From contig JBAIAA010000735.1 of the NCBI GenBank assembly GCA_037893245.1, forward strand, positions 1 through 64,000: a stretch of 64,000 nucleotides of DNA. The letters are read 5' to 3'. Each line of letters starts with the position of its first letter. Position 1 is the stretch's first letter. The position numbers and the translations under genes were made by a program. Positions 1 through 64,000 of the stretch are shown here, piece after piece. The notes under the pieces are model-generated. The model was given only the letters and a program-made list of their open reading frames with translations, did not search any database and was not told the origin of the DNA. Source of the stretch: Crossaster papposus (lineage: Eukaryota; Echinodermata; Asteroidea; Velatida; Solasteridae).

Positions 1-385
1 CTCTGAGTCGAGTACTTCAAGTCATACCAAAAACTTATTAGCAGCAGAACGAGGTTTTGATCCTTGGACCTCTGGGTTATGGGCCCAGCACGCTTCAACT
101 GCGCCACTATGCCTCATGTAAATTTAGAAAATGCAAACAAAATGAAAGCAGACATTCTAAAAACATTCTACAATATTTATTAAATGTGAATAGCAGTGAA
201 GCAAAAATACCTAGTTAGCAAAGCGAGGTTTTGGTCCTCGGACCTCTGGGCTATGGGCCCATAAGCTCCCGCTGCACTACTCTGCGTAACTATTTTTAAT
301 GAAAATGAAATCCCTATCAAATACAAAATTATCCTGAGCAGACCGAGGTTGTGGTCAACCAAACTCTCGGGTACTGACCAAGAAA
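1..385. repeat. Irregular half-unit with C/A hybrid module
   Basis: The window opens in a half-unit of the order C/A hybrid, B, M/M3' hybrid. The first tRNA-like module (42-113) begins as type C (the AGCAGCAGAACG side) and continues as type A after about position 65, so its anticodon is CAT, not the TAT of normal C modules. The third module switches from M3 to M3' sequence inside the identical tract at 328-353. The B copy also has a private change near 262 (ATAAGC for ATCACGC). The half-unit leads directly into module A at p=386. Confidence 0.85.
42..113 (-). pseudogene. C/A hybrid tRNA-iMet-like module
   Basis: The 3' acceptor and T-loop half matches module C and the anticodon, D-arm and 5' acceptor half matches module A. 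The switch lies within about 59-65, inside the T arm. One T-stem base also differs from both parents (CCTTG on the plus strand), breaking a T-stem pair. It looks like an unequal-exchange or conversion product. Confidence 0.75.
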
Positions 386-1180
386 GTGTCTACTTTGTCA
401 CTCCGAGTCGAGTACCTCATGTCATACCAAAAACTTGTTAGCAGAGCGAGGTTTCGATCCTCGGATCTCTGGGTTATGGGCCCAGCACGCTTCAACTGCG
501 CCACTATGCCTCATGTAAATTTAGAAAATGCAAACAAAATGAAAGCAGACATTCTAAAAACATTCTACAATATTTATTAAATGTGAATAGCAGTGAAGCA
601 AAAATACCTAGTTAGCAAAGCGAGGTTTTGGTCCTCGGACCTCTGGGCCCATCACGCTCCCGCTGCACTACTCTGCGTAACTATTTTTAATGAAAATGAA
701 ATCCCTATCAAATACAAAATTATCCTGAGCAGACCGAGGTTGTGATCATCCGAACTCTCGGTTACTGACCAAGAAAGGGTCTACTTTGTCACTCTGAGTC
801 GAGTACTTCAAGTCATACCAAAAACTTATTAGCAGCAGAACGAGGTTTTGATCCTCGGCACTCTGGGTTATAGGCCCAGCAAGCTTCCACTGCGCCACCA
901 TGCCTCATGTAAATTTAGAAAAACAACAAACAAAATAAAAGCAGACATTCTAAAAACATTCTAAAATAATTATTAAATTTGAATAACAGTGAAGCAAAAA
1001 TACCTCTTTAGCAGAGCGAGGTTTCGGTCCTCGGGCCTCTGGGTTATGGGCCCATCACGCTTCCCACTGCACCACTCTGTGTAACTATTTGTAATGAAAA
1101 TGAAATCACTTTCAAGGAAATAATTATCCTGAGCAGACCGAGGTTGTGGTCAACCAAACTCTCGGGTACTGACCAAGAAA
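386..1180. repeat. 795 bp HOR unit with 7 bp deletion in module B
   Basis: Order A-B-M3-C-D-M3'. The unit is 7 bp short because module B (around 645-650) has lost CTATGGG, which is the anticodon loop. The bases on both sides are GGG, so slippage between the two GGG runs explains it. Module A here also has one T-stem-side change (GATCTC at about 464). The D copy has a CpG change (CTGTGTAAC near 1079). Confidence 0.85.
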
Positions 1181-1578
1181 GTGTCTACTTTGTCACTCCG
1201 AGTCGAGTACCTCATGTCATACCAAAAACTTGTTAGCAGAGCGAGGTTTCGATCCTCGGACCTCTGGGTTATGGGCCCAGCACGCTTCAACTGCGCCACT
1301 ATGCCTCATGTAAATTTAGAAAATGCAAACAAAATGAAAGCAGACATTCTAAAAACATTCTACAATATTTATTAAATGTGAATAGCAGTGAAGCAAAAAA
1401 ACCTAGTTAGCAAAGCGAGGTTTTGGTCCTCGGACCTCTGGGCTATGGGCCCATCACGCTCCCGCTGCACTACTCTGCGTAACTATTTTTAATGAAAATG
1501 AAATCCCTATCAAATACAAAATTATCCTGAGCAGACCGAGGTTGTGGTCAACCAAACTCTCGGGTACTGACCAAGAAA
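1181..1578. repeat. 398 bp half-unit (A-B-M3 hybrid only)
   Basis: Modules C and D are absent. Module A and B are followed by a third module that changes from M3 to M3' within an identical 26 bp tract (1521-1546), and the next unit starts at 1579. This is what a crossover between M3 and M3' of misaligned HORs would leave. Confidence 0.85.
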
Positions 1579-2373
1579 GTGTCTACTTTGTCACTCCGAG
1601 TCGAGTACCTCATGTCATACCAAAAACTTGTTAGCAGAGCGAGGTTTCGATCCTCGGACCTCTGGGTTATGGGCCCAGCACGCTTCAACTGCGCCACTAT
1701 GCCTCATGTAAATTTAGAAAATGCAAACAAAATGAAAGCAGACATTCTAAAAACATTCTACAATATTTATTAAATGTGAATAGCAGTGAAGCAAAAATAC
1801 CTAGTTAGCAAAGCGAGGTTTTGGTCCTCGGACCTCTGGGCCCATCACGCTCCCGCTGCACTACTCTGCGTAACTATTTTTAATGAAAATGAAATCCCTA
1901 TCAAATACAAAATTATCCTGAGCAGACCGAGGTTGTGATCATCCGAACTCTCGGTTACTGACCAAGAAAGGGTCTACTTTGTCACTCTGAGTCGAGTACT
2001 TCAAGTCATACCAAAAACTTATTAGCAGCAGAACGAGGTTTTGATCCTCGGCACTCTGGGTTATAGGCCCAGCAAGCTTCCACTGCGCCACCATGCCTCA
2101 TGTAAATTTAGAAAAACAACAAACAAAATAAAAGCAGACATTCTAAAAACATTCTAAAATAATTATTAAATTTGAATAACAGTGAAGCAAAAATACCTCT
2201 TTAGCAGAGCGAGGTTTCGGTCCTCGGGCCTCTGGGTTATGGGCCCATCACGCTTCCCACTGCACCACTCTGCGTAACTATTTGTAATGAAAATGAAATC
2301 ACTTTCAAGGAAATAATTATCCTGAGCAGACCGAGGTTGTGGTCAACCAAACTCTCGGGTACTGACCAAGAAA
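1579..2373. repeat. Second 795 bp unit with the same 7 bp deletion
   Basis: Same order and same seven-base loss (junction at about 1840) as the 386 unit, exactly 1193 bp further on. The two 795 bp units and the half-unit are thus copies of a 1.5-HOR block of 1193 bp duplicated in tandem. Confidence 0.85.
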
Positions 2374-5300
2374 GTGTCTACTTTGTCACTCCGAGTCGAG
2401 TACCTCATGTCATACCAAAAACTTGTTAGCAGAGCGAGGTTTCGATCCTCGGACCTCTGGGTTATGGGCCCAGCACGCTTCAACTGCGCCACTATGCCTC
2501 ATGTAAATTTAGAAAATGCAAACAAAATGAAAGCAGACATTCTAAAAACATTCTACAATATTTATTAAATGTGAATAGCAGTGAAGCAAAAATACCTAGT
2601 TAGCAAAGCGAGGTTTTGGTCTTCGGACCTCTGGGCTATGGGCCCATCACGCTCCCGCTGCACTACTCTGCGTAACTATTTTTAATGAAAATGAAATCCC
2701 TATCAAATACAAAATTATCCTGAGCAGACCGAGGTTGTGATCATCCGTACTCTCGGTTAGTGACCAAGAAAGGGTCTACTTTGTCACTCTGAGTCGAGTA
2801 CTTCAAGTCATACCAAAAACTTATTAGCAGCAGAACGAGGTTTTGATCCTCGGCACTCTGGGTTATAGGCCCAGCAAGCTTCCACTGCGCCACCATGCCT
2901 CATGTAAATTTAGAAAAACAACAAACAAAATAAAAGCAGACATTCTAAAAACATTCTAAAATAATTATTAAATTTGAATAACAGTGAAGCAAAAATACCT
3001 CTTTAGCAGAGCGAGGTTTCGGTCCTCGGGCCTCTGGGTTATGGGCCCATCACGCTTCCCACTGCACCACTCTGCGTAACTATTTGTAATGAAAATGAAA
3101 TCACTTTCAAGGAAATAATTATCATGAGCAGACCGAGGTTGTGGTCAACCAAACTCTCGGGTACTGACCAAGAAAGTGTCTACTTTGTCACTCCGAGTCG
3201 AGTACCTCATGTCATACCAAAAACTTGTTAGCAGAGCGAGGTTTCGATCCTCGGACCTCTGGGTTATGGGCCCAGCACGCTTCAACTGCGCCACTATGCC
3301 TCATGTAAATTTAGAAAATGCAAACAAAATGAAAGCAGACATTCTAAAAACATTCTACAATATTTATAAAATGTGAATAGCAGTGAAGCAAAAATACCTA
3401 GTTAGCAAAGCAAGGTTTTGGTCCTCGGACCTCTGGGCTATGGGCCCATCACGCTCCCGCTGCACTACTCTGCGTAACTATTTTTAATGAAAATGAAATC
3501 CCTATCAAATACAAAATTATCCTGAGCAGACCGAGGTTGTGATCATCCGAACTCTCGGTTACTGACCAAGAAAGGGTCTACTTTGTCACTCTGAGTCGAG
3601 TACTTCAAGTCATACCAAAAACTTATTAGCAGCAGAACGAGGTTTTGATCCTCGGCACTCTGGGTTATAGGCCCAGCAAGCTTCCACTGCGCCACCATGC
3701 CTCATGTAAATTTAGAAAAACAACAAACAAAATAAAAGCAGACATTCTAAAAACATTCTAAAATAATTATTAAATTTGAATAACAGTGAAGCAAAAATAT
3801 CTCTTTAGCAGAGCGAGGTTTCGGTCCTCAAGCCTCTGGGTTATGGGCTCATCACGCTTCCCACTGCACCACTCTGCGTAACTATTTGTAATGAAAATGA
3901 AATCACTTTCAAGGAAATAATTATCCTGAGCAGACCGAGGTTGTGGTCAACCAAACTCTCGGGTACTGACCAAGAAAGTGTCTACTTTGTCACTCCGAGT
4001 CGAGTACCTCATGTCATACCAAAAACTTGTTAGCAGAGCGAGGTTTCGATCCTCGGACCTCTGGGTTATGGGCCCAGCACGCTTCAACTGCGCCACTATG
4101 CCTCATGTAAATTTAGAAAATGCAAACAAAATGAAAGCAGACATTCTAAAAACATTCTACAATATTTATTAAATGTGAATAGCAGTGAAGCAAAAATACC
4201 TAGTTAGCAAAGCAAGGTTTTGGTCCTCGGACCTCTGGGCTATGGGCCCATCACGCTCCCGCTGCACTACTCTGCGTAACTATTTTTAATGAAAATGAAA
4301 TCCCTATCAAATACAAAATTATCCTGAGCAGACCGAGGTTGTGATCATCCGAACTCTCGGTTACTGACCAAGAAAGGGTCTACTTTGTCACTCTGAGTCG
4401 AGTACTTCAAGTCATACCAAAAACTTATTAGCAGCAGAACGAGGTTTTGATCCTCGGCACTCTGGGTTATAGGCCCAGCAAGCTTCCACTGCGCCACCAT
4501 GCCTCATGTAAATTTAGAAAAACAACAAACAAAATAAAAGCAGACATTCTAAAAACATTCTAAAATAATTATTAAATTTGAATAACAGTGAAGCAAAAAT
4601 ACCTCTTTAGCAGAGCGAGGTTTCGGTCCTCGGGCCTCTGGGTTATGGGCCCATCACGCTTCCCACTGCACCACTCTGCGTAACTATTTGTAATGAAAAT
4701 GAAATCACTTTCAAGGAAATAATTATCCTGAGCAGACCGAGGTTGTGGTCAACCAAACTCTCGGGTACTGACCAAGAAAGTGTCTACTTTGTCACTCCGA
4801 GTCGAGTACCTCATGTCATACCAAAAACTTGTTAGCAGAGCGAGGTTTCGATCCTCGGACCTCTGGGTTATGGGCCCAGCACGCTTCAACTGCGCCACTA
4901 TGCCTCATGTAAATTTAGAAAATGCAAACAAAATGAAAGCAGACATTCTAAAAACATTCTACAATATTTATTAAATGTGAATAGCAGTGAAGCAAAAATA
5001 CCTCTTTAGCAGAGCGAGGTTTTGGTCCTCGGACCTCTGGGCTATGGGCCCATCACGCTCCCGCTGCACTACTCTGCGTAACTATTTTTAATGAAAATGA
5101 AATCCCTATCAAATACAAAATTATCCTGAGCAGACCGAGGTTGTGATCATCCGAACTCTCGGTTACTGACCAAGAAAGGGTCTACTTTGTCACTCTGAGT
5201 CGAAAACTTCAAGTCATACCAAAAACTTATTAGCAGCAGAACGAGGTTTTGATCCTCGGCACTCTGGGTTATAGGCCCAGCAAGCTTCCACTGCGCCACC

Positions 5301-8300
5301 ATGCCTCATGTAAATTTAGAAAAACAACAAACAAAATAAAAGCAGACATTCTAAAAACATTCTAGAATAATTATTAAATTTGAATAACAGTGAAGCAAAA
5401 ATACCTCTTTAGCAGAGCGAGGTTTCGGTCCTCGGGCCTCTGGGTTATGGGCCCATCACGCTTCCCACTGCACCACTCTGCGTAACTATTTGTAATGAAA
5501 ATGAAATTACTTTCAAGGAAATAATTATCCTGAGCAGACCGAGGTTGTGGTCAACCAAACTCTCGGGTACTGACCAAGAAAGTGTCTACTTTGTCACTCC
5601 GAGTCGAGTACCTCATGTCATACCAAAAACTTGTTAGCAGAGCGAGGTTTCGATCCTCGGACCTCTGGGTTATGGGCCCAGCACGCTTCAACTGCGCCAC
5701 TATGCCTCATGTAAATTTAGAAAATGCAAACAAAATGAAAGCAGACATTCTAAAAACATTCTACAATATTTATTAAATGTGAATAGCAGTGAAGCAAAAA
5801 TACATAGTTAGCAAAGCGAGGTTTTGGTCCTCGGACCTCTGGGCTATTGGCCCATCACGCTCCCGCTGCACTACTCTGCGTAACTATTTTTAATGAAAAT
5901 GAAATCCCTATCAAATACAAAATTATCCTGAGCAGACCGAGGTTGTGATCATCCGAACTCTCGGTTACTGACCAAGAAAGGGTCTACTTTGTCACTCTGA
6001 GTCGAGTACTTCAAGTCATACCAAAAACTTATTAGCAGCAGAACGAGGTTTTGATCCTCGGCACTCTGGGTTATAGGCCCAGCAAGCTTCCACTGCGCCA
6101 CCATGCCTCATGTAAATTTAGAAAAACAACAAACAAAATAAAAGCAGACATTCTAAAAACATTCTAAAATAATTATTAAATTTGAATAACAGTGAAGCAA
6201 AAATACCTCTTTAGCAGAGCGAGGTTTCGGTCCTCGGGCCTTTGGGTTATGGGCCCATCACGCTTCCCACTGCACCACTCTGCGTAACTATTTGTTATGA
6301 AAATGAAATCACTTTCAAGGAAATAATTATCCTGAGCAGACCGAGGTTGTGGTCAACCAAACTCTCGGGTACTGACCAAGAAAGTGTCTACTTTGTCACT
6401 CCGAGTCGAGTACCTCATGTCATACCAAAAACTTGTTAGCAGAGCGAGGTTTCGATCCTCGGACCTCTGGGTTATGGGCCCAGCACGCTTCAACTGCGCC
6501 ACTATGCCTCATGTAAAGTTAGAAAATGCAAACAAAATGAAAGCAGACATTCTAAAAACATTCTACAATATTTATTAAATGTGAATAGCAGTGAAGCAAA
6601 AATACATAGTTAGCAAAGCGAGGTTTTGGTCCTCGGACCTCTGGGCTATTGGCCCATCACGCTCCCGCTGCACTACTCTGCGTAACTATTTTTAATGAAA
6701 ATGAAATCCCTATCAAATACAAAATTATCCTGAGCAGACCGAGGTTGTGATCATCCGAACTCTCGGTTACTGACCAAGAAAGGGTCTACTTTGTCACTCT
6801 GAGTCGAGTACTTCAAGTCATACCAAAAACTTATTAGCAGCAGAACGAGGTTTTGATCCTCGGCACTCTAGGTTATAGGCCCAGCAAGCTTCCACTGCGC
6901 CACCATGCCTCATGTAAATTTAGAAAAACAACAAACAAAATAAAAGCAGACATTCTAAAAACATTCTAAAATAATTATTAAATTTGAATAACAGTGAAGC
7001 AAAAATACCTCTTAAGCAGAGCGAGGTTTCGGTCCTCGGGCCTCTGGGATATGGGCCCATCACGCTTCCCACTGCACCACTCTGCGTAACTATTTGTAAT
7101 GAAAATGAAATCACTTTCAAGGAAATAATTATCCTGAGCAGACCGAGGTTGTGGTCAACCAAACTCTCGGGTACTGACCAAGAAAGTGTCTACTTTGTCA
7201 CTCCGAGTCGAGTACCTCATGTCATACCAAAAACTTGTTAGCAGAGCGAGGTTTCGATCCTCGGACCTCTGGGATATGGGCCCAGCACGCTTCAACTGCG
7301 CCACTATGCCTCATGTAAATTTAGAAAATGCAAACAAAATGAAAGCAGACATTCTAAAAACATTCTACAATATTTATTAAATGTGAATAGCAGTGAAGCA
7401 AAAATACCTAGTTAGCAAAGCGAGGTTTTGGTCCTCGGACCTCTGGGCTATGGGCCCATCACGCTCCCGCTGCACTACTCTGCGTAACTATTTTTAATGA
7501 AAATGAAATCCCTATCAAATACAAAATTATCCTGAGCAGACCGAGGTTGTGATCATCCGAACTCTCGGTTACTGACCAAGAAAGGGTCTACTTTGTCACT
7601 CTGAGTCGAGTACTTCAAGTCATACCAAAAACTTATTAGCAGCAGAACGAGGTTTTGATCCTCGGCACTCTGGGTTATAGGCCCAGCAAGCTTCCACTGC
7701 GCCACCATGCCTCATGTAAATTTAGAAAAACAACAAACAAAATAAAAGCAGACATTCTAAAAACATTCTAAAATAATTATTAAATTTGAATAACAGTGAA
7801 GCAAAAATACCTCTTTAGCAGAGCGAGGTTTCGGTCCTCGGGCCTCTGGGTTATGGGCCCATCACGCTTCCCACTGCACCACTCTGCGTAACTATTTGTA
7901 ATGAAAATGAAATCACTTTCAAGGAAATAATTATCCTGAGCAGACCGAGGTTGTGGTCAACCAAACTCTCGGGTACTGACCAAGAAAGTGTCTACTTTGT
8001 CACTCCGAGTCGAGTACCTCATGTCATACCAAAAACTTGTTAGCAGAGCGAGGTTTCGATCCTCGGACCTCTGGGTTATGGGCCCAGCACGCTTCAACTG
8101 CGCCACTATGCCTCATGTAAATTTAGAAAATGCAAACAAAATAAAAGCAGACATTCTAAAAACATTCTACAATATTTATTAAATGTGAATAGCAGTGAAG
8201 CAAAAATACCTCTTTAGCAGAGCGAGGTTTTGGTCCTCGGACCTCTGGGCTATGGGCCCATCACGCTCCCGCTGCACTACTCTGCGTAACTATTTTTAAT

Positions 8301-10393
8301 GAAAATGAAATCCCTATCAAATACAAAATTATCCTGAGCAGACCGAGGTTGTGATCATCCGAACTCTCGGTTACTGACCAAGAAAGGGTCTACTTTGTCA
8401 CTCTGAGTCGAAAACTTCAAGTCATACCAAAAACTTATTAGCAGCAGAACGAGGTTTTGATCCTCGGCACTCTGGGTTATAGGCCCAGCAAGCTTCCACT
8501 GCGCCACCATGCCTCATGTAAATTTAGAAAAACAACAAACAAAATAAAAGCAGACATTCTAAAAACATTCTAGAATAATTATTAAATTTGAATAACAGTG
8601 AAGCAAAAATACCTCTTTAGCAGAGCGAGGTTTCGGTCCTCGGGCCTCTGGGTTATGGGCCCATCACGCTTCCCACTGCACCACTCTGCGTAACTATTTG
8701 TAATGAAAATGAAATTACTTTCAAGGAAATAATTATCCTGAGCAGACCGAGGTTGTGGTCAACCAAACTCTCGGGTACTGACCAAGAAAGTGTCTACTTT
8801 GTCACTCCGAGTCGAGTACCTCATGTCATACCAAAAACTTGTTAGCAGAGCGAGGTTTCGATCCTCGGACCTCTGGGTTATGGGCCCAGCACGCTTCAAC
8901 TGCGCCACTATGCCTCATGTAAATTTAGAAAATGCAAACAAAATGAAAGCAGACATTCTAAAAACATTCTACAATATTTATTAAATGTGAATAGCAGTGA
9001 AGCAAAAATACATAGTTAGCAAAGCGAGGTTTTGGTCCTCGGACCTCTGGGCTATTGGCCCATCACGCTCCCGCTGCACTACTCTGCGTAACTATTTTTA
9101 ATGAAAATGAAATCCCTATCAAATACAAAATTATCCTGAGCAGACCGAGGTTGTGATCATCCGAACTCTCGGTTACTGACCAAGAAAGGGTCTACTTTGT
9201 CACTCTGAGTCGAGTACTTCAAGTCATACCAAAAACTTATTAGCAGCAGAACGAGGTTTTGATCCTCGGCACTCTGGGTTATAGGCCCAGCAAGCTTCCA
9301 CTGCGCCACCATGCCTCATGTAAATTTAGAAAAACAACAAACAAAATAAAAGCAGACATTCTAAAAACATTCTAAAATAATTATTAAATTTGAATAACAG
9401 TGAAGCAAAAATACCTCTTTAGCAGAGCGAGGTTTCGGTCCTCGGGCCTTTGGGTTATGGGCCCATCACGCTTCCCACTGCACCACTCTGCGTAACTATT
9501 TGTTATGAAAATGAAATCACTTTCAAGGAAATAATTATCCTGAGCAGACCGAGGTTGTGGTCAACCAAACTCTCGGGTACTGACCAAGAAAGTGTCTACT
9601 TTGTCACTCCGAGTCGAGTACCTCATGTCATACCAAAAACTTGTTAGCAGAGCGAGGTTTCGATCCTCGGACCTCTGGGTTATGGGCCCAGCACGCTTCA
9701 ACTGCGCCACTATGCCTCATGTAAAGTTAGAAAATGCAAACAAAATGAAAGCAGACATTCTAAAAACATTCTACAATATTTATTAAATGTGAATAGCAGT
9801 GAAGCAAAAATACATAGTTAGCAAAGCGAGGTTTTGGTCCTCGGACCTCTGGGCTATTGGCCCATCACGCTCCCGCTGCACTACTCTGCGTAACTATTTT
9901 TAATGAAAATGAAATCCCTATCAAATACAAAATTATCCTGAGCAGACCGAGGTTGTGATCATCCGAACTCTCGGTTACTGACCAAGAAAGGGTCTACTTT
10001 GTCACTCTGAGTCGAGTACTTCAAGTCATACCAAAAACTTATTAGCAGCAGAACGAGGTTTTGATCCTCGGCACTCTAGGTTATAGGCCCAGCAAGCTTC
10101 CACTGCGCCACCATGCCTCATGTAAATTTAGAAAAACAACAAACAAAATAAAAGCAGACATTCTAAAAACATTCTAAAATAATTATTAAATTTGAATAAC
10201 AGTGAAGCAAAAATACCTCTTAAGCAGAGCGAGGTTTCGGTCCTCGGGCCTCTGGGATATGGGCCCATCACGCTTCCCACTGCACCACTCTGCGTAACTA
10301 TTTGTAATGAAAATGAAATCACTTTCAAGGAAATAATTATCCTGAGCAGACCGAGGTTGTGGTCAACCAAACTCTCGGGTACTGACCAAGAAA
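2374..10393. repeat. Ten regular 802 bp units
   Basis: Unit anchors p: 2374, 3176, 3978, 4780, 5582, 6384, 7186, 7988, 8790, 9592. All have the six-module order. Local variants: 2374 has CTTCGG in B (about 2622) and GTTAGTG in M3. Units 3176 and 3978 have CAAGG for CGAGG in the T stem of B (near 3411 and 4213). The 3978 unit is preceded by an altered D (TATCTCTT, CTCAAGCC, GGGCTC around 3799-3850). Units 5582, 6384, 8790 and 9592 have the AAT-anticodon B module. Units 6384 and 9592 carry GTAAAGTTAG in the spacer. 7186 has GATATGGG in the anticodon arm of A. 7988 has AAAATAAAAGC in the spacer. Confidence 0.9.
4981..7188. repeat. Four-unit block duplication, copy 1
   Basis: Shared private variants lie exactly 3208 bp (four HORs) from those of copy 2: CCTCTTTAGC in B at about 5001 and 8209, CGAAAACTTC at 5201 and 8409, TTTGGGTTAT in D at about 6241 and 9449, and AAGCAGAG/GATATGGG in D near 7014-7050 and 10222-10258. 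The left edge lies between about 4215 and 5001. The right edge is after the D at about 7050, before C-D differences near 7770. Confidence 0.85.
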
Positions 10394-10396
10394 GTG
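8189..10396. repeat. Four-unit block duplication, copy 2
   Basis: Copy of the block starting near 4981, shifted by 3208 bp. Changes after the duplication are few: the 7186 unit of copy 1 has GATATGGG in module A while its partner at 10394 has the normal GTTATGGG, and 7988 has one spacer change not in 4780. The block is therefore young relative to HOR formation. Confidence 0.85.
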
Positions 10397-11020
10397 TCTA
10401 CTTTGTCACTCCGAGTCGAGTACCTCATGTCATACCAAAAACTTGTTAGCAGAGCGAGGTTTCGATCCTCGGACCTCTGGGTTATGGGCCCAGCACGCTT
10501 CAACTGCGCCACTATGCCTCATGTAAATTTAGAAAATGCAAACAAAATGAAAGCAGACATTCTAAAAACATTCTACAATATTTATTAAATGTGAATAGCA
10601 GTGAAGCAAAAATACCTAGTTAGCAAAGCGAGGTTTTGGTCCTCGGACCTCTGGGCTATGGGCCCATCACGCTCCCGCTGCACTACTCTGCGTAACTATT
10701 TTTAATGAAAATGAAATCCCTATCAAATACAAAATTATCCTGAGCAGACCGAGGTTGTGATCATCCGAACTCTCGGTTACTGACCAAGAAAGGGTCTACT
10801 TTGTCACTCTGAGTCGAGTACTTCAAGTCATACCAAAAACTTATTAGCAGCAGAACGAGGTTTTGATCCTCGGCACTCTGGGTTATAGGCCCAGCAAGCT
10901 TCCACTGCGCCACCATGCCTCATGTAAATTTAGAAAAACAACAAACAAAATAAAAGCAGACATTCTAAAAACATTCTAAAGTAATTATTAAATTTGAATA
11001 ACAGTGAAGCAAAAATACCT
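9730..11020. repeat. Segment repeated 6190 bp downstream (15920-17210)
   Basis: Marker variants recur together with a constant offset of 6190 bp: CATAGTTAGC in B, CTATTGG (9858, 16048), CTCTAGG in C, TTAAGCAG and GATATGGG in D, and CTAAAGTAATT (10981, 17171). The upstream neighbour differs (GTAAAGTTAG only in the first) and so does the downstream side (contracted unit versus normal D). Most of these markers also occur 3208 bp upstream, so this haplotype appears three times. Confidence 0.8.
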
Positions 11021-11772
11021 CTTTAGCAGAGCGAGGTTTCGATCCTCGGACCTCTGGGTTATGGGCCCAGCACGCTTCAACTGCGCCACTATGCCTCATG
11101 TAAATTTAGAAAATGCAAACAAAATGAAAGCAGACATTCTAAAAACATTCTACAATATTTATTAAATGTGAATAGCAGTGAAGCAAAAATACCTAGTTAG
11201 CAAAGCGAGGTTTTGGTCCTCGGACCTCTGGGCTATGGGCCCATCACGCTCCCGCTGCACTACTCTGCGTAACTATTTTTAATGAAAATGAATTCCCTAT
11301 CAAATACAAAATTATCCTGAGCAGACCGAGGTTGTGATCATCCGAACTCTCGGTTACTGACCAAGAAAGGGTCTACTTTGTCACTCTGAGTCGAGTACTT
11401 CAAGTCATACCAAAAACTTATTAGCAGCAGAACGAGGTTTTGATCCTCGGCACTCTGGGTTATAGGCCCAGCAAGCTTCCACTGCGCCACCATGCCTCAT
11501 GTAAATTTAGAAAAACAACAAACCAAATAAAAGCAGACATTCTAAAAACATTCTAAAATAATTATTAAATTTGAATAACAGTGAAGCAAAAATACCTCTT
11601 TAGCAGAGCGAGGTTTCGGTCCTCGGGCCTCTGGGTTATGGGCCCATCACGCTTCCCACTGCACCACTCTGCGTAACTATTTGTAATGAAAATGAAAACA
11701 CTTTCAAGGAAATAATTATCCTGAGCAGACCGAGGTTGTGGTCAACCAAACTCTCGGGTACTGACCAAGAAA
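10394..11772. repeat. Contracted region: 577 bp truncated unit plus D/A hybrid
   Basis: The unit at 10394 runs A-B-M3-C and then enters D, but within the acceptor/T-arm tract at 11023-11041 (19 bp identical in D and A) it becomes module A. The next modules are B-M3-C-D-M3' before the regular unit at 11773. The spacing between A-type 3' ends is 577 bp instead of 802, a loss of 225 bp. B after the hybrid has AATTCCC (about 11292), a marker also at 18506-18510 and 28129-28133. Confidence 0.88.
11024..11095 (-). pseudogene. D/A hybrid tRNA-iMet-like module
   Basis: The sequence to the left (CCTCTT before TAGCAGAG) is D-type and everything after the T loop is A-type, including the T loop ATCGAAA, the CAT anticodon and the 5' acceptor GGCATAG. 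The module itself is identical to a normal A module because the exchange fell in the shared tract. It keeps the A and B boxes, but its downstream T5 tract is that of D. Confidence 0.8.
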
Positions 11773-49906: not shown

Positions 49907-49914
49907 CTTATTAG

Positions 49915-50082: not shown

Positions 50083-50090
50083 TACCTCTT

Positions 50091-50163: not shown

Positions 50164-50212
50164 TAACTATTTGTAATGAAAATGAAATCACTTTCAAGGA
50201 AATAATTATCCT

Positions 50213-50284
50213 GAGCAGACCGAGGTTGTGGTCAACCAAACTCTCGGGTACTGACCAAGAAAGTGTCTACTTTGTCACTCCGAG
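50213..50284 (-). pseudogene. Module M3': strongly decayed tRNA-iMet-like sequence
   Basis: Counterpart of M3. It shares the first 26 bases of the spacer/acceptor side with M3 and then differs (gtcaacc in place of atcatcc on the plus strand). This creates a small perfect hairpin GGTTG-tggt-CAACC inside the old T-arm position, a structure unrelated to a tRNA. No T4 tract follows its 3' side, unlike the other modules. It runs 22 bases into the next unit as defined here. Confidence 0.58.
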
Positions 50285-53200: not shown

Positions 53201-53469
53201 AATTTAGAAAAACAACAAACAAAATAAAAGCAGACATTCTAAAAACATTCTAAAATAATTATTAAATTTGAATAACAGTGAAGCAAAAATACCTCTTTAG
53301 CAGAGCGAGGTTTTGGTCCTCGGGCCTCTGGGTTATGGGCCCATCATGCTTCCCACTGCACCACTCTGCGTAACTATTTGTAATGAAAATGAAATCACTT
53401 TCAAGGAAATAATTATCCTGAGCAGACCGAGGTTGTGGTCAACCAAACTCTCGGGTACTGACCAAGAAA

Positions 53470-56400
53470 GTGTCTACTTTGTCACTCCGAGTCGAGTACC
53501 TCATGTCATACCAAAAACTTGTTAGCAGAGCGAGGTTTCGATCCTCGGACCTCTGGGTTATGGGCCCAGCACGCTTCAACTGCGCCACTATGCCTCATGT
53601 AAATTTAGAAAATGCAAACAAAATGAAAGCAGACATTCTAAAAATATTCTACAATATTTATTAAATGTGAATAGCAGTGAAGCAAAAATACCTAGTTAGC
53701 AAAGCGAGGTTTTGGTCCTCGGACCTCTGGGCTATGGGCCCATCACGCTCCCGCTGCACTACTCTGCATAACTATTTTTAATGAAAATGAAATCCCTATC
53801 AAATACAAAATTATCCTGAGCAGACCGAGGTTGTGATCATCCGAACTCTCGGTTACTGACCAAGAAAGGGTCTACTTTGTCACTCTGAGTCGAGTACTTC
53901 AAGTCATACCAAAAACTTATTAGCAGCAGAACGAGGTTTTGATCCTCGGCACTCTGGGTTATAGGCCCAGCAAGCTTCCACTGCGCCACCATGCCTCATG
54001 TAAATTTAGAAAAACAACAAACAAAATAAAAGCAGACATTCTAAAAACATTCTAAAATAATTATTAAATTTGAATAACAGTGAAGCAAAAATACCTCTTT
54101 AGCAGAGCGAGGTTTTGGTCCTCGGGCCTCTGGGTTATGGGCCCATCACGCTTCCCACTGCACCACTCTGCGTAACTATTTGTAATGAAAATGAAATCAC
54201 TTTCAAGGAAATAATTATCCTGAGCAGACCGAGGTTGTGGTCAACCAAACTCTCGGGTACTGACCAAGAAAGTGTCTACTTTGTCACTCCGAGTCGAGTA
54301 CCTCATGTCATACCAAAAACTTGTTAGCAGAGCGAGGTTTCGATCCTCGGACCTCTGGGTTATGGGCCCAGCACGCTTCAACTGCGCCACTATGCCTCAT
54401 GTAAATTTAGAAAATGCAAACAAAATGAAAGCAGACATTCTAAAAATATTCTACAATATTTATTAAATGTGAATAGCAGTGAAGCAAAAATACCTAGTTA
54501 GCAAAGCGAGGTTTTGGTCCTCGGACCTCTGGGCTATGGGCCCATCACGCTCCCGCTGCACTACTCTGCGTAACTATTTTTAATGAAAATGAAATCCCTA
54601 TCAAATACAAAATTATCCTGAGCAGACCGAGGTTGTGATCATTCGAACTCTCGGTTACTGACCAAGAAAGGGTCTACTTTGTCACTCTGAGTCGAGTACT
54701 TCAAGTCATACCAAAAACTTATTAGCAGCAGAACGAGGTTTTGATCCTCGGCACTCTGGGTTATAGGCCCAGCAAGCTTCCACTGCGCCACCATGCCTCA
54801 TGTAAATTTAGAAAAACAACAAACCAAATAAAAGCAGACATTCTAAAAACATTCTAAAATAATTATTAAATTTGAATAACAGTGAAGCAAAAATACCTCT
54901 TTAGCAGAGCGAGGTTTCGGTCCTCGGGCCTCTGGGTTATGGGCCCATCACGCTTCCCACTGCACCACTCTGCGTAACTATTTGTAATGAAAATGAAATC
55001 ACTTTCAAGGAAATAATTATCCTGAGCAGACCGAGGTTGTGGTCAACCAAACTCTCGGGTACTGACCAAGAAAGTGTCTACTTTGTCACTCCGAGTCGAG
55101 TACCTCATGTAATACCAAAAACTTGTTAGCAGAGCGAGGTTTCGATCCTCGGACCTCTGGGTTATGGGCCCAGCACGCTTCAACTGCGCCACTATGCCTC
55201 ATGTAAATTTAGAAAATGCAAACAAAATGAAAGCAGACATTCTAAAAACATTCTACAATATTTATTAAATGTGAATAGCAGTGAAGCAAAAATACCTAGT
55301 TAGCAAAGCGAGGTTTTGGTCCTCGGACCTCTGGGCTATGGGCCCATCACGCTCCCGCTGCACTACTCTGCGTAACTATTTTTAATGAAAATGAAATCCC
55401 TATCAAATACAAAATTATCCTGAGCGGACCGAGGTTGAGATCATCCGAACTCTCGGTTACTGACCAAGAAAGGGTCTACTTTGTCACTCTGAGTCGAGTA
55501 CTTCAAGTCATACCAAAAACTTATTAGCAGCAGAACGAGGTTTTGATCCTCGGCACTCTGGGTTATAGGCCCAGCAAGCTTCCACTGCGCCACCATGCCT
55601 CATGTAAATTTAGAAAAACAACAAACAAAATAAAAGCAGACATTCTAAAAACATTCTAAAATAATTATTAAATTTGAATAACAGTGAAGCAAAAATACCT
55701 CTTTAGCAGAGCGAGGTTTTGGTCCTCGGGCCTCTGGGTTATGGGCCCATCACGCTTCCCACTGCACCACTCTGCGTAACTATTTGTAATGAAAATGAAA
55801 TCACTTTCAAGGAAATAATTATCCTGAGCAGACCGAGGTTGTGGTCAACCAAACTCTCGGGTACTGACCAAGAAAGTGTCTACTTTGTCACTCCGAGTCG
55901 AGTACCTCATGTCATACCAAAAACTTGTTAGCAGAGCGAGGTTTCGATCCTCGGACCTCTGGGTTATGGGCCCAGCACGCTTCAACTGCGCCACTATGCC
56001 TCATGTAAATTTAGAAAATGCAAACAAAATGAAAGCAGACATTCTAAAAATATTCTACAATATTTATTAAATGTGAATAGCAGTGAAGCAAAAATACCTA
56101 GTTAGCAAAGCGAGGTTTTGGTCCTCGGACCTCTGGGCTATGGGCCCATCACGCTCCCGCTGCACTACTCTGCATAACTATTTTTAATGAAAATGAAATC
56201 CCTATCAAATACAAAATTATCCTGAGCAGACCGAGGTTGTGATCATCCGAACTCTCGGTTACTGACCAAGAAAGGGTGTACTTTGTCACTCTGAGTCGAG
56301 TACTTCAAGTCATACCAAAAACTTATTAGCAGCAGAACGAGGTTTTGATCCTCGGCACTCTGGGTTATAGGCCCAGCAAGCTTCCACTGCGCCACCATGC

Positions 56401-59400
56401 CTCATGTAAATTTAGAAAAACAACAAACAAAATAAAAGCAGACATTCTAAAAACATTCTAAAATAATTATTAAATTTGAATAACAGTGAAGCAAAAATAC
56501 CTCTTTAGCAGAGCGAGGTTTTGGTCCTCGGGCCTCTGGGTTATGGGCCCATCACGCTTCCCACTGCACCACTCTGCGTAACTATTTGTAATGAAAATGA
56601 AATCACTTTCAAGGAAATAATTATCCTGAGCAGACCGAGGTTGTGGTCAACCAAACTCTCGGGTACTGACCAAGAAAGTGTCTACTTTGTCACTCCGAGT
56701 CGAGTACCTCATGTCATACCAAAAACTTGTTAGCAGAGCGAGGTTTCGATCCTCGGACCTCTGGGTTATGGGCCCAGCACGCTTCAACTGCGCCACTATG
56801 CCTCATGTAAATTTAGAAAATGCAAACAAAATGAAAGCAGACATTCTAAAAACATTCTACAATATTTATTAAATGTGAATAGCAGTGAAGCAAAAATACC
56901 TAGTTAGCAAAGCGAGGTTTTGGTCCTCGGACCTCTGGGCTATGGGCCCATCACGCTCCCGCTGCACTACTCTGCGTAACTATTTTTAATGAAAATGAAA
57001 TCCCTATCAAATACAAAATTATCCTGAGCAGACCGAGGTTGTGATCATCCGAACTCTCGGTTACTGACCAAGAAAGGGTCTACTTTGTCACTCTGAGTCG
57101 AGTACTTCAAGTCATACCAAAAACTTATTAGCAGCAGAACGAGGTTTTGATCCTCGGCACTCTGGGTTATAGGCCCAGCAAGCTTCCACTGCGCCACCAT
57201 GCCTCATGTAAATTTAGAAAAACAACAAACAAAATAAAAGCAGACATTCTAAAAACATTCTAAAATAATTATTAAATTTGAATAACAGTGAAGCAAAAAT
57301 ACCTCTTTAGCAGAGCGAGGTTTCGGTCCTCGGGCCTCTGGGTTATGGGCCCATCACGCTTCCCACTGCACCACTCTGCGTAACTATTTGTAATGAAAAT
57401 GAAATCACTTTCAAGGAAATAATTATCCTGAGCAGACCGAGGTTGTGGTCAACCAAACTCTCGGGTACTGACCAAGAAAGTGTCTACTTTGTCACTCCGA
57501 GTCGAGTACCTCATGTCATACCAAAAACTTGTTAGCAGAGCGAGGTTTCGATCCTCGGACCTCTGGGTTATGGGCCCAGCACGCTTCAACTGCGCCACTA
57601 TGCCTCATGTAAATTTAGAAAATGCAAACAAAATGAAAGCAGACATTCTAAAAACATTCTACAATATTTATTAAATGTGAATAGCAGTGAAGCAAAAATA
57701 CCTAGTTAGCAAAGCGAGGTTTTGGTCCTCGGACCTCTGGGCTATGGGCCCATCACGCTCCCGCTGCACTACTCTGCGTAACTATTTTTAATGAAAATGA
57801 AATCCCTATCAAATACAAAATTATCCTGAGCAGACCGAGGTTGTGATCATCCGAACTCTCGGTTACTGACCAAGAAAGGGTCTACTTTGTCACTCTGAGT
57901 CGAGTACTTCAAGTCATACCAAAAACTTATTAGCAGCAGAACGAGGTTTTGATCCTCGGCACTCTGGGTTATAGGCCCAGCAAGCTTCCACTGCGCCACC
58001 ATGCCTCATGTAAATTTAGAAAAACAACAAACAAAATAAAAGCAGACATTCTAAAAACATTCTAAAATAATTATTAAATTTGAATAACAGTGAAGCAAAA
58101 ATACCTCTTTAGCAGAGCGAGGTTTCGGTCCTCGGGCCTCTGGGTTATGGGCCCATCACGCTTCCCACTGCACCACTCTGCGTAACTATTTGTAATGAAA
58201 ATGAAATCACTTTCAAGGAAATAATTATCCTGAGCAGACCGAGGTTGTGGTCAACCAAACTCTCGGGTACTGACCAAGAAAGTGTCTACTTTGTCACTCC
58301 GAGTCGAGTACCTCATGTCATACCAAAAACTTGTTAGCAGAGCGAGGTTTCGATCCTCGGACCTCTGGGTTATGGGCCCAGCACGCTTCAACTGCGCCAC
58401 TATGCCTCATGTAAATTTAGAAAATGCAAACAAATGAAAGCAGACATTCTAAAAACATTCTACAATATTTATTAAATGTGAATAGCAGTGAAGCAAAAAT
58501 ACCTAGTTAGCAAAGCGAGGTTTTGGTCCTCGGACCTCTGGGCTATGGGCCCATCACGCTCTCGCTGCACTACTCTGCGTAACTATTTTTAATGAAAATG
58601 AAATCCCTATCAAATACAAAATTATCCTGAGCAGACCGAGGTTGTGATCATCCGAACTCTCGGTTACTGACCAAGAAAGGGTCTACTTTGTCACTCTGAG
58701 TCGAGTACTTCAAGTCATACCAAAAACTTATTAGCAGCAGAACGAGGTTTTGATCCTCGGCACTCTGGGTTATAGGCCCAGCAAGCTTCCACTGCGCCAC
58801 CATGCCTCATGTAAATTTAGAAAAACAACAAACAAAATAAAAGCAGACATTCTAAAAACATTCTAAAATAATTATTAAATTTGAATAACAGTGAAGCAAA
58901 AATACCTCTTTAGCAGAGCGAGGTTTTGGTCCTCGGGCCTCTGGGTTATGGGCCCATCACGCTTCCCACTGCACCACTCTGCGTAACTATTTGTAATGAA
59001 AATGAAATCACTTTCAAGGAAATAATTATCCTGAGCAGACCGAGGTTGTGGTCAACCAAACTCTCGGGTACTGACCAAGAAAGTGTCTACTTTGTCACTC
59101 CGAGTCGAGTACCTCATGTCATACCAAAAACTTGTTAGCAGAGCGAGGTTTCGATCCTCGGACCTCTGGGTTATGGGCCCAGCACGCTTCAACTGCGCCA
59201 CTATGCCTCATGTAAATTTAGAAAATGCAAACAAAATGAAAGCAGACATTCTAAAAATATTCTACAATATTTATTAAATGTGAATAGCAGTGAAGCAAAA
59301 ATACCTAGTTAGCAAAGCGAGGTTTTGGTCCTCGGACCTCTGGGCTATGGGCCCATCACGCTCCCGCTGCACTACTCTGCATAACTATTTTTAATGAAAA

Positions 59401-60685
59401 TGAAATCCCTATCAAATACAAAATTATCCTGAGCAGACCGAGGTTGTGATCATCCGAACTCTCGGTTACTGACCAAGAAAGGGTCTACTTTGTCACTCTG
59501 AGTCGAGTACTTCAAGTCATACCAAAAACTTATTAGCAGCAGAACGAGGTTTTGATCCTCGGCACTCTGGGTTATAGGCCCAGCAAGCTTCCACTGCGCC
59601 ACCATGCCTCATGTAAATTTAGAAAAACAACAAACAAAATAAAAGCAGACATTCTAAAAACATTCTAAAATAATTATTAAATTTGAATAACAGTGAAGCA
59701 AAAATACCTCTTTAGCAGAGCGAGGTTTCGGTCCTCGGGCCTCTGGGTTATGGGCCCATCACGCTTCCCACTGCACCACTCTGCGTAACTATTTGTAATG
59801 AAAATGAAATCACTTTCAAGGAAATAATTATCCTGAGCAGACCGAGGTTGTGGTCAACCAAACTCTCGGGTACTGACCAAGAAAGTGTCTACTTTGTCAC
59901 TCCGAGTCGAGTACCTCATGTCATACCAAAAACTTGTTAGCAGAGCGAGGTTTCGATCCTCGGACCTCTGGGTTATGGGCCCAGCACGCTTCAACTGCGC
60001 CACTATGCCTCATGTAAATTTAGAAAATGCAAACAAATGAAAGCAGACATTCTAAAAACATTCTACAATATTTATTAAATGTGAATAGCAGTGAAGCAAA
60101 AATACCTAGTTAGCAAAGCGAGGTTTTGGTCCTCGGACCTCTGGGCTATGGGCCCATCACGCTCTCGCTGCACTACTCTGCGTAACTATTTTTAATGAAA
60201 ATGAAATCCCTATCAAATACAAAATTATCCTGAGCAGACCGAGGTTGTGATCATCCGAACTCTCGGTTACTGACCAAGAAAGGGTCTACTTTGTCACTCT
60301 GAGTCGAGTACTTCAAGTCATACCAAAAACTTATTAGCAGCAGAACGAGGTTTTGATCCTCGGCACTCTGGGTTATAGGCCCAGCAAGCTTCCACTGCGC
60401 CACCATGCCTCATGTAAATTTAGAAAAACAACAAACAAAATAAAAGCAGACATTCTAAAAACATTCTAAAATAATTATTAAATTTGAATAACAGTGAAGC
60501 AAAAATACCTCTTTAGCAGAGCGAGGTTTTGGTCCTCGGGCCTCTGGGTTATGGGCCCATCACGCTTCCCACTGCACCACTCTGCGTAACTATTTGTAAT
60601 GAAAATGAAATCACTTTCAAGGAAATAATTATCCTGAGCAGACCGAGGTTGTGGTCAACCAAACTCTCGGGTACTGACCAAGAAA
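53470..60685. repeat. Nine-unit block (7217 bp), copy 2
   Basis: Anchors p: 53470 (i), 54272 (i), 55074 (v), 55876 (i), 56678, 57480, 58282 (delta-t, 801 bp), 59083 (i), 59885 (delta-t, 801 bp). The order of unit classes matches 46253-52667 up to the unit at 59083. After that the copies part: the D before 59885 has TTTCGG where its partner has TTTTGG, and 59885 is class delta-t while 52668 is not. Confidence 0.88.
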
Positions 60686-63600
60686 GTGTCTACTTTGTCA
60701 CTCCGAGTCGAGTACCTCATGTCATACCAAAAACTTGTTAGCAGAGCGAGGTTTCGATCCTCGGACCTCTGGGTTATGGGCCCAGCACGCTTCAACTGCG
60801 CCACTATGCCTCATGTAAATTTAGAAAATGCAAACAAAATGAAAGCAGACATTCTAAAAATATTCTACAATATTTATTAAATGTGAATAGCAGTGAAGCA
60901 AAAATACCTAGTTAGCAAAGCGAGGTTTTGGTCCTCGGACCTCTGGGCTATGGGCCCATCACGCTCCCGCTGCACTACTCTGCATAACTATTTTTAATGA
61001 AAATGAAATCCCTATCAAATACAAAATTATCCTGAGCAGACCGAGGTTGTGATCATCCGAACTCTCGGTTACTGACCAAGAAAGGGTCTACTTTGTCACT
61101 CTGAGTCGAGTACTTCAAGTCATACCAAAAACTTATTAGCAGCAGAACGAGGTTTTGATCCTCGGCACTCTGGGTTATAGGCCCAGCAAGCTTCCACTGC
61201 GCCACCATGCCTCATGTAAATTTAGAAAAACAACAAACAAAATAAAAGCAGACATTCTAAAAACATTCTAAAATAATTATTAAATTTGAATAACAGTGAA
61301 GCAAAAATACCTCTTTAGCAGAGCGAGGTTTTGGTCCTCGGGCCTCTGGGTTATGGGCCCATCACGCTTCCCACTGCACCACTCTGCGTAACTATTTGTA
61401 ATGAAAATGAAATCACTTTCAAGGAAATAATTATCCTGAGCAGACCGAGGTTGTGGTCAACCAAACTCTCGGGTACTGACCAAGAAAGTGTCTACTTTGT
61501 CACTCCGAGTCGAGTACCTCATGTCATACCAAAAACTTGTTAGCAGAGCGAGGTTTCGATCCTCGGACCTCTGGGTTATGGGCCCAGCACGCTTCAACTG
61601 CGCCACTATGCCTCATGTAAATTTAGAAAATGCAAACAAAATGAAAGCAGACATTCTAAAAACATTCTACAATATTTATTAAATGTGAATAGCAGTGAAG
61701 CAAAAATACCTAGTTAGCAAAGCGAGGTTTTGGTCCTCGGACCTCTGGGCTATGGGCCCATCACGCTCCCGCTGCACTACTCTGCGTAACTATTTTTAAT
61801 GAAAATGAAATCCCTATCAAATACAAAATTATCCTGAGCAGACCGAGGTTGTGATCATCCGAACTCTCGGTTACTGACCAAGAAAGGGTCTACTTTGTCA
61901 CTCTGAGTCGAGTACTTCAAGTCATACCAAAAACTTATTAGCAGCAGAACGAGGTTTTGATCCTCGGCACTCTGGGTTATAGGCCCAGCAAGCTTCCACT
62001 GCGCCACCATGCCTCATGTAAATTTAGAAAAACAACAAACAAAATAAAAGCAGACATTCTAAAAACATTCTAAAATAATTATTAAATTTGAATAACAGTG
62101 AAGCAAAAATACCTCTTTAGCAGAGCGAGGTTTCGGTCCTCGGGCCTCTGGGTTATGGGCCCATCACGCTTCCCACTGCACCACTCTGCGTAACTATTTG
62201 TAATGAAAATGAAATCACTTTCAAGGAAATAATTATCCTGAGCAGACCGAGGTTGTGGTCAACCAAACTCTCGGGTACTGACCAAGAAAGTGTCTACTTT
62301 GTCACTCCGAGTCGAGTACCTCATGTCATACCAAAAACTTGTTAGCAGAGCGAGGTTTCGATCCTCGGACCTCTGGGTTATGGGCCCAGCACGCTTCAAC
62401 TGCGCCACTATGCCTCATGTAAATTTAGAAAATGCAAACAAAATGAAAGCAGACATTCTAAAAACATTCTACAATATTTATTAAATGTGAATAGCAGTGA
62501 AGCAAAAATACCTAGTTAGCAAAGCGAGGTTTTGGTCCTCGGACCTCTGGGCTATGGGCCCATCACGCTCCCGCTGCACTACTCTGCGTAACTATTTTTA
62601 ATGAAAATGAAATCCCTATCAAATACAAAATTATCCTGAGCAGACCGAGGTTGTGATCATCCGAACTCTCGGTTACTGACCAAGAAAGGGTCTACTTTGT
62701 CACTCTGAGTCGAGTACTTCAAGTCATACCAAAAACTTATTAGCAGCAGAACGAGGTTTTGATCCTCGGCACTCTGGGTTATAGGCCCAGCAAGCTTCCA
62801 CTGCGCCACCATGCCTCATGTAAATTTAGAAAAACAACAAACAAAATAAAAGCAGACATTCTAAAAACATTCTAAAATAATTATTAAATTTGAATAACAG
62901 TGAAGCAAAAATACCTCTTTAGCAGAGCGAGGTTTCGGTCCTCGGGCCTCTGGGTTATGGGCCCATCACGCTTCCCACTGCACCACTCTGCGTAACTATT
63001 TGTAATGAAAATGAAATCACTTTCAAGGAAATAATTATCCTGAGCAGACCGAGGTTGTGGTCAACCAAACTCTCGGGTACTGACCAAGAAAGTGTCTACT
63101 TTGTCACTCCGAGTCGAGTACCTCATGTCATACCAAAAACTTGTTAGCAGAGCGAGGTTTCGATCCTCGGACCTCTGGGTTATGGGCCCAGCACGCTTCA
63201 ACTGCGCCACTATGCCTCATGTAAATTTAGAAAATGCAAACAAATGAAAGCAGACATTCTAAAAACATTCTACAATATTTATTAAATGTGAATAGCAGTG
63301 AAGCAAAAATACCTAGTTAGCAAAGCGAGGTTTTGGTCCTCGGACCTCTGGGCTATGGGCCCATCACGCTCTCGCTGCACTACTCTGCGTAACTATTTTT
63401 AATGAAAATGAAATCCCTATCAAATACAAAATTATCCTGAGCAGACCGAGGTTGTGATCATCCGAACTCTCGGTTACTGACCAAGAAAGGGTCTACTTTG
63501 TCACTCTGAGTCGAGTACTTCAAGTCATACCAAAAACTTATTAGCAGCAGAACGAGGTTTTGATCCTCGGCACTCTGGGTTATAGGCCCAGCAAGCTTCC

Positions 63601-64000
63601 ACTGCGCCACCATGCCTCATGTAAATTTAGAAAAACAACAAACAAAATAAAAGCAGACATTTTAAAAACATTCTAAAATAATTATTAAATTTGAATAACA
63701 GTGAAGCAAAAATACCTCTTTAGCAGAGCGAGGTTTCGGTCCTCGGGCCTCTGGGTTATGGGCCCATCACGCTTCCCACTGCACCACTCTGCGTAACTAT
63801 TTGTAATGAAAATGAAATCACTTTCAAGGAAATAATTATCCTGAGCAGACCGAGGTTGTGGTCAACCAAACTCTCGGGTACTGACCAAGAAAGTGTCTAC
63901 TTTGTCACTCCGAGTCGAGTACCTCATGTCATACCAAAAACTTGTTAGCAGAGCGAGGTTTCGATCCTCGGACCTCTGGGTTATGGGCCCAGCACGCTTC
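60686..64000. repeat. Last four units and a partial unit
   Basis: Anchors p: 60686 (i), 61488, 62290, 63092 (delta-t, 801 bp), 63893 (partial). The window ends inside module A of the last unit (module would span 63946-64017), so the array continues beyond 64000. Confidence 0.9.

Follow-up and report, generated by a model that had tools for sequence, protein, structure and literature searches.

Higher-order repeats (HORs) are best known from primate alpha satellite, in which diverged monomers that do not derive from a gene are ordered into a homogenized multimonomer unit. Arrays of tRNA genes occur in Entamoeba as tandem tRNA-carrying units of several isotypes, which are taken to be functional. 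Tandem repeats with a resemblance to tRNA are also described from amphibians in the parts of the published accounts drawn on here: Cynops PolIII/TAN, Xenopus OAX/satellite I, and Rana/polIII, together with Hy/polIII, whose tRNA origin is doubtful. PolIII/TAN can be transcribed in vitro, and Rana/polIII makes up as much as 10% of the genome in some green frogs (PMC10702118). The Arabidopsis SYY cluster of tRNA-Ser and tRNA-Tyr genes contains minor variants, some of them tRNA-like pseudogenes, that are biased to one unit position and to flanking regions (PMC12308677). Homogeneous tandem tRNA arrays were considered uncommon outside Entamoeba by the authors who described a human array at 1q23.3 (PMC4041453). 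Here we analyze a satellite from the sea star Crossaster papposus whose repeating unit is built on a single initiator methionine tRNA (iMet). The stretch analyzed (the window) comprises the first 64,000 bp of contig C735 (JBAIAA010000735.1; 228,430 bp) in assembly GCA_037893245.1, which totals 1,023,315,904 bp in 1,841 contigs.

The window is a tandem array of an 802-bp HOR, with a self-identity of 0.878 at lag 802, compared with 0.42 at lags 398 to 404 and ~0.3 at other short lags. A total of 478 iMet-like modules (37 or more of 72 positions matching canonical iMet without gaps) were found, all in one orientation (minus strand), and their starts recur at 103 + 122 + 176 + 106 + 121 + 174 = 802 bp. 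The array, hereafter array 1, continues past the window to ~80 kb and holds 599 modules scoring 40 to 69 of 72 (ungapped), whereas 20 first-order Markov simulations of the 80-kb sequence peaked at only 32 to 36. In the window, ARAGORN (bacterial code) called 79 tRNA-Met(CAT), every one on the minus strand. Rfam returned 238 matches at the gathering score (maximum, 49.8 bits), and the 150 of these that were listed were all tRNA (RF00005) on the minus strand. A preliminary description, made from the sequence alone, had proposed six minus-strand iMet-like modules per 802-bp unit and about 80 units with about 480 modules in 64 kb. ARAGORN, Rfam, and alignment support the tRNA identity, the spacings give six modules per unit, and 80 A1-type modules were counted among the 478. 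Only about half of the modules, 238 of the 478, reach the Rfam threshold.

The 79 intervals between the A1-type modules comprise 66 of 802 bp, 9 of 801 bp, 2 of 795 bp, 1 of 577 bp, and 1 of 398 bp. Mean identity between units is 99.3% (79 aligned units, irregular ones included), while the two half-units (401 bp each in the consensus) are 89.1% identical to each other. Because the halves are so much less alike than the units, the 802-bp unit is a genuine HOR, as had been proposed. Head-to-tail arrays of this one unit extend over 64 kb in the window and ~80 kb in the contig, as is characteristic of a satellite. A second array on C735 (array 2, described below) is less regular: 53 of 88 intervals are regular, compared with 95 of 99 in array 1, and regular units deviate from the consensus by 0.81% and by 0.33% on average, respectively, with irregular intervals (35 in array 2 and 4 in array 1) excluded from these deviations. 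The array had also been called free of interruption. As far as the module spacing shows, there is indeed no foreign DNA, but the array contains a 225-bp recombination deletion at 11,024 to 11,095, a 398-bp interval close to its left end, and B modules with a 7-bp deletion.

In tRNA sense, the unit reads A1-C1-B1-A2-C2-B2, that is, two diverged A-C-B trimers (Table 1). The consensus modules match canonical iMet at 69 (A1), 45 (C1), 54 (B1; ungapped, with one additional base in the module), 62 (A2), 50 (C2), and 62 (B2) of 72 positions. The three differences in A1 are at string indices 1, 5, and 17, which we take to be tRNA positions 1, 5, and 18, and A2 has ten differences, the anticodon among them. 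Together, the modules account for 53.9% of the unit, and their G+C content is 57%, compared with 25% in the spacers. The C modules, which score 44 to 51 of 72 throughout array 1, were identified by ungapped alignment to iMet alone, and none of them was among the 48 Rfam matches obtained over the first 10 kb at E values up to 10.

Table 1. Features of the 802-bp array in the window (TRF, Tandem Repeats Finder; scores are matches to canonical iMet)
Feature	Coordinates	Strand	Basis and remarks
Tandem array of 802-bp HOR	1..64000	- (tRNA sense)	Continues to about C735:80,150
Example of a regular 802-bp unit, A1-C1-B1-A2-C2-B2 plus spacer	2499..3300	-	Module spacings; Rfam matches at 3229-3300, 3004-3076, 2828-2899, and 2601-2672
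Module A1, iMet-like, 69/72	3229..3300	-	ARAGORN, Rfam, alignment; matches to both A and B boxes; followed by TTTTT; differs at indices 1, 5, and 17 of 72
Module C1, diverged tRNA-like, 45/72	3126..3197	-	Position from spacings; no B box
Module B1, iMet-like, 54/72 ungapped (one additional base)	3004..3076	-	Rfam, alignment; B box lost (GGACC); TTTTT downstream
Module A2, 62/72	2828..2899	-	Rfam, alignment; anticodon CAT to TAT; A and B boxes matched
Module C2, diverged tRNA-like, 50/72	2722..2793	-	Position from spacings
Module B2, 62/72	2601..2672	-	Rfam, alignment; B box lost; 26.5 bits, under the Rfam threshold in this copy
A/B chimeric module (A1 upstream flank and body, B1 downstream flank)	11024..11095	-	225 bp (A1 to B1) removed; 577-bp interval; TRF rows break at 10,849-11,250
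B2 variant, 7-bp deletion across the anticodon arm	1799..1870, also 606..677	-	Score 40; spacing 167; several other contigs carry the same variant

Irregular units point to how the array changes. When 1,394 modules were classed by both flanks, 447 were AA, 447 CC, and 433 BB; 50 had one flank unclassed, and the remaining 17 were chimeric (14 AB and 3 BA). One chimera lies in the window (Table 1), and the other 16 comprise 13 AB modules on C146 and C262 and 3 BA modules in array 2. The upstream flank of A1 is only 0.55 to 0.57 alike to those of B1 and C1, compared with 0.83 to 0.88 between modules at the equal position in the two halves of the unit. Because flanks differ between positions while the tRNA parts are common to them, the exchanges most likely took place in tRNA sequence, that is, by unequal crossing-over inside tRNA modules. 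The chimeras are the best direct evidence for this mechanism.

Array 1 belongs to a much larger family. A 26-nt marker of module C (up to 2 mismatches) has 13,783 + 9,725 = 23,508 matches in the assembly, and a reversed-pattern control has 0. At ~400 bp per marker, the family extends over ~9.4 Mb, or 0.9% of the assembly, so that the array that the preliminary description had reported, besides reaching beyond the window, is one branch among others. Array sequence was confirmed on 16 contigs—C13, C60, C79, C146, C255, C262, C271, C424, C463, C556, C648, C723, C735, C784, C833, and C862—and C163 and C216 carry the family by pattern match only. Six small samples had 99.6% (C13), 99.6% (C723), 98.7% (C424), 98.6% (C556), 95.3% (C271), and 87.1% (C255, a rearranged copy) identity to the window consensus. 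The family thus occupies many loci that evolve in concert, as expected of a satellite. Sampled arrays keep the A-C-B order; among their variants is ACBB, which gives 572-bp units on C146 and C262. Matches span 0.73 to 2.62 Mb on C262 and 2.80 to 6.69 Mb on C146, stretches that were not read through. The exact 72-nt canonical iMet sequence has 41 + 1,240 = 1,281 copies in the assembly (control, 0), and all 100 copies among the matches listed are on C146.

A second isotype is amplified in the same genome. Tandem intact tRNA-Lys(TTT) genes form 572-bp units at C479:19,000-486,000, and 770-bp units on both strands at C424:1,269,000-1,376,000. Exact 72-nt copies of this tRNA number 551 in the assembly (control, 0).

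On C735, array 1 ends near position 80,150 and is followed by ~29 kb of other DNA. Array 2, also of the 802-bp type, then runs from about 109,200 to 181,850 on the opposite strand. Its outermost left A module matches iMet at 70 of 72 positions and is closer to canonical than the sampled array interior. Two tandem repeats unrelated to the arrays lie nearby: one of 928 bp (6.5 copies) at C735:99,460-105,460, in the DNA between arrays 1 and 2, and one of 1,715 bp (7.3 copies, 97% matches) at C735:181,760-194,590, beside array 2. Pieces of the latter had looked tRNA-like by eye; a cmscan search of C735:181,500-186,500 (E up to 1; ~3 of the 7.3 copies) found tRNA at the array edge only, plus one weak SCARNA7 match, and the idea was dropped.

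Array edges vary in unit phase: on C735 one coincides with a B-module 3′ end (80,150), one lies within a C module (109,200), and one falls between C and B (181,850), while on C13 the edge is at the 3′ end of an A-type module. An array on C833 has near 691,056 an edge like that of array 1, and the flanks of the two are 98.1% identical over 580 bp (C833:690,488-691,064 versus C735:80,151-80,730), where the match stops within the 1,056 bp of flank compared. This common edge suggests that both haplotypes are present in the assembly. A sample from C833:661,001-663,500 had no match to C735:1-200,000 among the matches listed, so the pairing rests on the 580-bp edge only.

Initiator tRNAs are marked by an A1-U72 pair, G18, three G-C pairs in the anticodon stem, and A54. 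A1, the window module closest to iMet, has the three anticodon-stem G-C pairs, the CAT anticodon, and A54. It lacks an intact acceptor stem with A1-U72 and the D-loop G18: it carries G1 (a G1-U72 pair), T5 facing C68, which breaks the 5:68 pair, and T replacing G18. Stem pairs are not preserved in excess of random substitution of equal number and kind, with 1 broken pair observed versus 1.4 expected in A1, 2 versus 3.7 in A2 (P = 0.18), 2 versus 3.1 in B2, and 8 versus 8.8 in C2. The tRNA modules are no less variable than the spacers, both in array 1 (0.42% versus 0.26%) and in array 2 (0.85% versus 0.78%), in a comparison in which C1, one of the six modules, straddled the cut and was counted as spacer. 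Because essential tRNA positions are changed and the modules show no extra conservation over spacers, we strongly infer from the sequence that the window copies are pseudogenes evolving as a satellite. The preliminary view of an array made of initiator-tRNA copies thus holds for the derivation of the modules and not for their function as iMet genes, given the three changes in A1 and the greater decay of the other five. We also considered selection on A1. A first alignment anchored on A1 gave it 0.14% variability versus a mean of 1.4%, a result biased by the anchor and by irregular units; with C1 as the anchor, the value was 0.04% in array 1 and as high as 0.84% in array 2, and the claim was dropped.

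Promoter elements differ among the modules. We surveyed 21 stretches with 357 modules in all (115 A, 122 B, 118 C, and 2 unclassed), labeled via the downstream flank (up to 2 mismatches) with a few wrong labels, such as B-like modules called C in samples L032 and L038; the samples are related copies and not independent observations. An A box match was present in 114 of 115 A modules, 93 of 122 B modules, and 1 of 118 C modules, and a B box match in 110, 2, and 0, respectively. TTTTT occurs within 26 nt downstream of 105 A, 119 B, and 2 C modules, with TTTT in 61 of the 118 C modules. The RNA polymerase III (Pol III)-type set of A box, B box, and T-run terminator is therefore complete for A modules only. 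Because A modules match both boxes and have a terminator, they may bind TFIIIC and give short nonfunctional transcripts, or they may be silenced.

In the arrays that contain perfect iMet copies, diversity across 20 A modules was 0.026 in the tRNA, 0.056 upstream, and 0.018 downstream. The lower value in the tRNA than upstream is a hint of protection that is suggestive at most. Several of these A modules are altered in the anticodon loop or lack one base of the tRNA, and the B modules carry two kinds of upstream flank.

We found no iMet outside the array family in partial, nonexhaustive pattern searches of the assembly. The patterns were designed to skip array contexts and covered variant forms of the array-type T arm plus a single arm of vertebrate type. 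A pattern with G or T after the tRNA had 15 matches, and the 4 that were fetched were all in array sequence. With a changed fifth downstream base there were 177 matches; among the 100 listed, four on C255 were places already found with the G-or-T pattern, and the rest departed from the array flank by one or two bases. A changed T-stem base gave 138 matches, and the 100 listed each differ from the array T arm by one or two bases; two that looked isolated (C424 and C556) were fetched, and both lie in array sequence. The vertebrate-type T arm (up to 2 mismatches) had 0 matches in the assembly. A genome-wide Rfam tRNA search scored 63 of 213,984 candidates, and ARAGORN called none of the eleven Rfam tRNA matches on other contigs as Met (8 Thr, 1 Pro or Thr, 1 Asn, and 1 Cys). 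Scattered, varied tRNA-Thr(GGT)-like sequences (one of them Pro or Thr) occur on several contigs and are possibly heads of short interspersed elements (SINEs).

As the probable explanation of these observations taken together, we propose that a three-gene iMet cluster became a satellite that changes by crossing-over and has sister arrays with perfect genes. In a sea star-like echinoderm, a small cluster of three iMet genes (A, C, and B) with unlike spacers would have become a 398-bp tandem unit, in which C decayed and B lost its B box, as the anatomy of the unit suggests. Two diverged trimers form the 802-bp unit, which has been amplified and homogenized to ~99% on several contigs. As the junctions show, the tRNA modules, which are the main sequence common to the positions, serve as recombination sites, and unequal crossing-over inside them gains or loses blocks of 174 to 225 bp. 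The decayed 802-bp branch would have spread as a satellite with no selection on its tRNA structure in evidence, while the C146/C262 branch keeps many perfect genes and would probably supply initiator tRNA. The satellite origin and the recombination mechanism are the parts that we hold to be very likely. That the array family houses the working iMet genes is a fair possibility, if one that falls short of probable. More speculative is the idea, which we put forward tentatively and with some doubt, that initiator tRNA is encoded only by the satellite: the megabase family would be the sole home of the working genes, with ~1,300 perfect copies kept much like ribosomal DNA, and also the source of a decayed HOR satellite that spread to many chromosomes, perhaps serving at centromeres.

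Several points weigh against the proposed explanation. Many of the chimeras are copies of one another, so that independent exchanges number fewer than 17, and the flank identities were not set against a chance level. Protection of the tRNA is not clear even in the perfect-gene arrays, and the A and B boxes kept in A modules could reflect recency. Assembled array lengths may be inaccurate, and the assembly may contain both haplotypes. Finally, the search for iMet outside the arrays is incomplete at 100 of 177 and 100 of 138 matches listed and 63 of 213,984 candidates scored.

The arrays might instead be a battery of functional initiator-tRNA genes amplified for dosage, for instance in oogenesis, with the window copies expressed too. 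The near-complete Pol III-type set in sampled A modules, the 1,281 perfect iMet copies, and the parallel tRNA-Lys arrays with their 551 exact copies would all fit such a battery. However, A1 has lost G18 and carries the G1-U72 pair and the broken 5:68 pair, the A2 anticodon is changed, the B box is nearly absent from B modules and both boxes are nearly absent from C modules, and in the window arrays the tRNA shows no more conservation than the spacer. An array of working genes in the window was rejected as the main reading on account of the changes at essential positions and the lack of extra conservation, and we regard a dosage battery as improbable. Derivation of the unit from a SINE with a tRNA head, and not from tRNA genes, is less probable again. 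SINE-derived satellites have a precedent in squamates, according to the part of the paper drawn on here (PMC10702118), and the scattered tRNA-Thr-like copies in this genome may be SINE heads. Against such an origin, the three tRNA modules of the unit differ from one another and have unlike flanks, a T-run follows both A and B, sister arrays hold perfect 72-nt iMet copies, and the edges read break at several points of the unit with no constant element end, although dispersed single units were not systematically sought.

A structural role is harder to set aside: the family could be a centromeric or pericentromeric satellite in which TFIIIC on A modules organizes chromatin, by analogy with the tRNA clusters at fission-yeast centromeres. 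The megabase extents on C262 and C146, the presence on 16 contigs, the HOR hierarchy, the concerted evolution, and the inverted arrays are consistent with such a role. Yet the 802-bp consensus has no primate-type CENP-B box (an element that is not universal), and some arrays sit within contigs next to other DNA, where further tandem repeats are also found; on balance we find a centromeric satellite possible but rather unlikely. Inflation of a short tRNA cluster by misassembly could be suspected from the start of the contig inside the array and from the array edge repeated on C833, with both haplotypes probably present. It is very improbable given the distinct variants, edges, and chimeras on 16 contigs and the flanks that differ where edges were read.

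Two other contigs can be noted apart from the arrays. The mitochondrial contig C1841 (16,330 bp) carries COX1 along with further mitochondrial genes. The conserved COX1 start STNHKDIGTLY is recovered when AAA is read as Asn, and AGA and AGG are read through, as in the echinoderm code. ND1 and ND2 are on the opposite strand to COX1, an arrangement typical of sea stars, and code and gene order together point to a probable sea star host. On contig C8 (5.3 Mb), genes for cytochrome oxidase subunit I have frames that stay open under the standard code, and from these it is probably a bacterial associate assembled along with the animal.

If initiator tRNA is indeed encoded only by the satellite, an essential housekeeping gene and a structural satellite belong to a single repeat family in which tRNA sequence sets the register of recombination. 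This one genome holds everything from perfect tRNA genes down to decayed satellite modules, together with crossover products showing the change of unit, and the conversion of a gene to satellite DNA becomes directly readable. This raises the question of whether an essential initiator tRNA gene can reside solely in satellite arrays. For annotation, tRNA counts in such genomes are open to inflation by thousands of near-genes.

Among described systems, alpha satellite shares the HOR principle, but the sea star modules are tRNA copies with unequal spacing and no CENP-B box. Unlike the Entamoeba arrays, the sea star satellite has one isotype and is mostly decayed in the window. The amphibian repeats are likewise tandem repeats with tRNA-like sequence; as far as the consulted part of the account goes, their units contain one tRNA-like region, which is weak in Rana (64% over 64 nt) (PMC10702118). 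In comparison, 54% of the sea star unit consists of six modules of one tRNA, and sister arrays carry perfect copies. The nearest architecture is that of SYY, with units of three tRNA genes in tandem that arose by tandem duplication, although the cluster as described in the text available comprises tens of genes (54 clustered tDNA-Tyr), two isotypes, and one chromosomal site (PMC12308677). The sea star family has more than 20,000 trimer markers, one isotype, many contigs, and an HOR. The human 1q23.3 variable number tandem repeat resembles this satellite as a homogeneous tandem repeat with tRNA genes and is variable in copy number; it differs in its 7.3-kb units, its 9 to 43 copies per allele, and a suggested boundary function (PMC4041453, in part). 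Fission-yeast centromeric clusters also place tRNA genes in repeat-rich chromosome regions, but they are small, of mixed isotypes, and composed of intact genes, and are thought to be boundaries and not a satellite (PMC6538654, in part). The preliminary description had put the array forward as a candidate for an undescribed element, and among the matches listed in the open-access literature there was no description of a satellite with such a hierarchy that is based on one initiator tRNA. In the compared systems, to the extent that their partial texts describe them, none combines a single initiator tRNA, an HOR, ~1% of the genome, and perfect genes in sister arrays. Because tRNA-like tandem repeats have precedents and this genome also has tRNA-Lys arrays, it is not an element without relatives: it is a striking variant of the tRNA-derived satellites.

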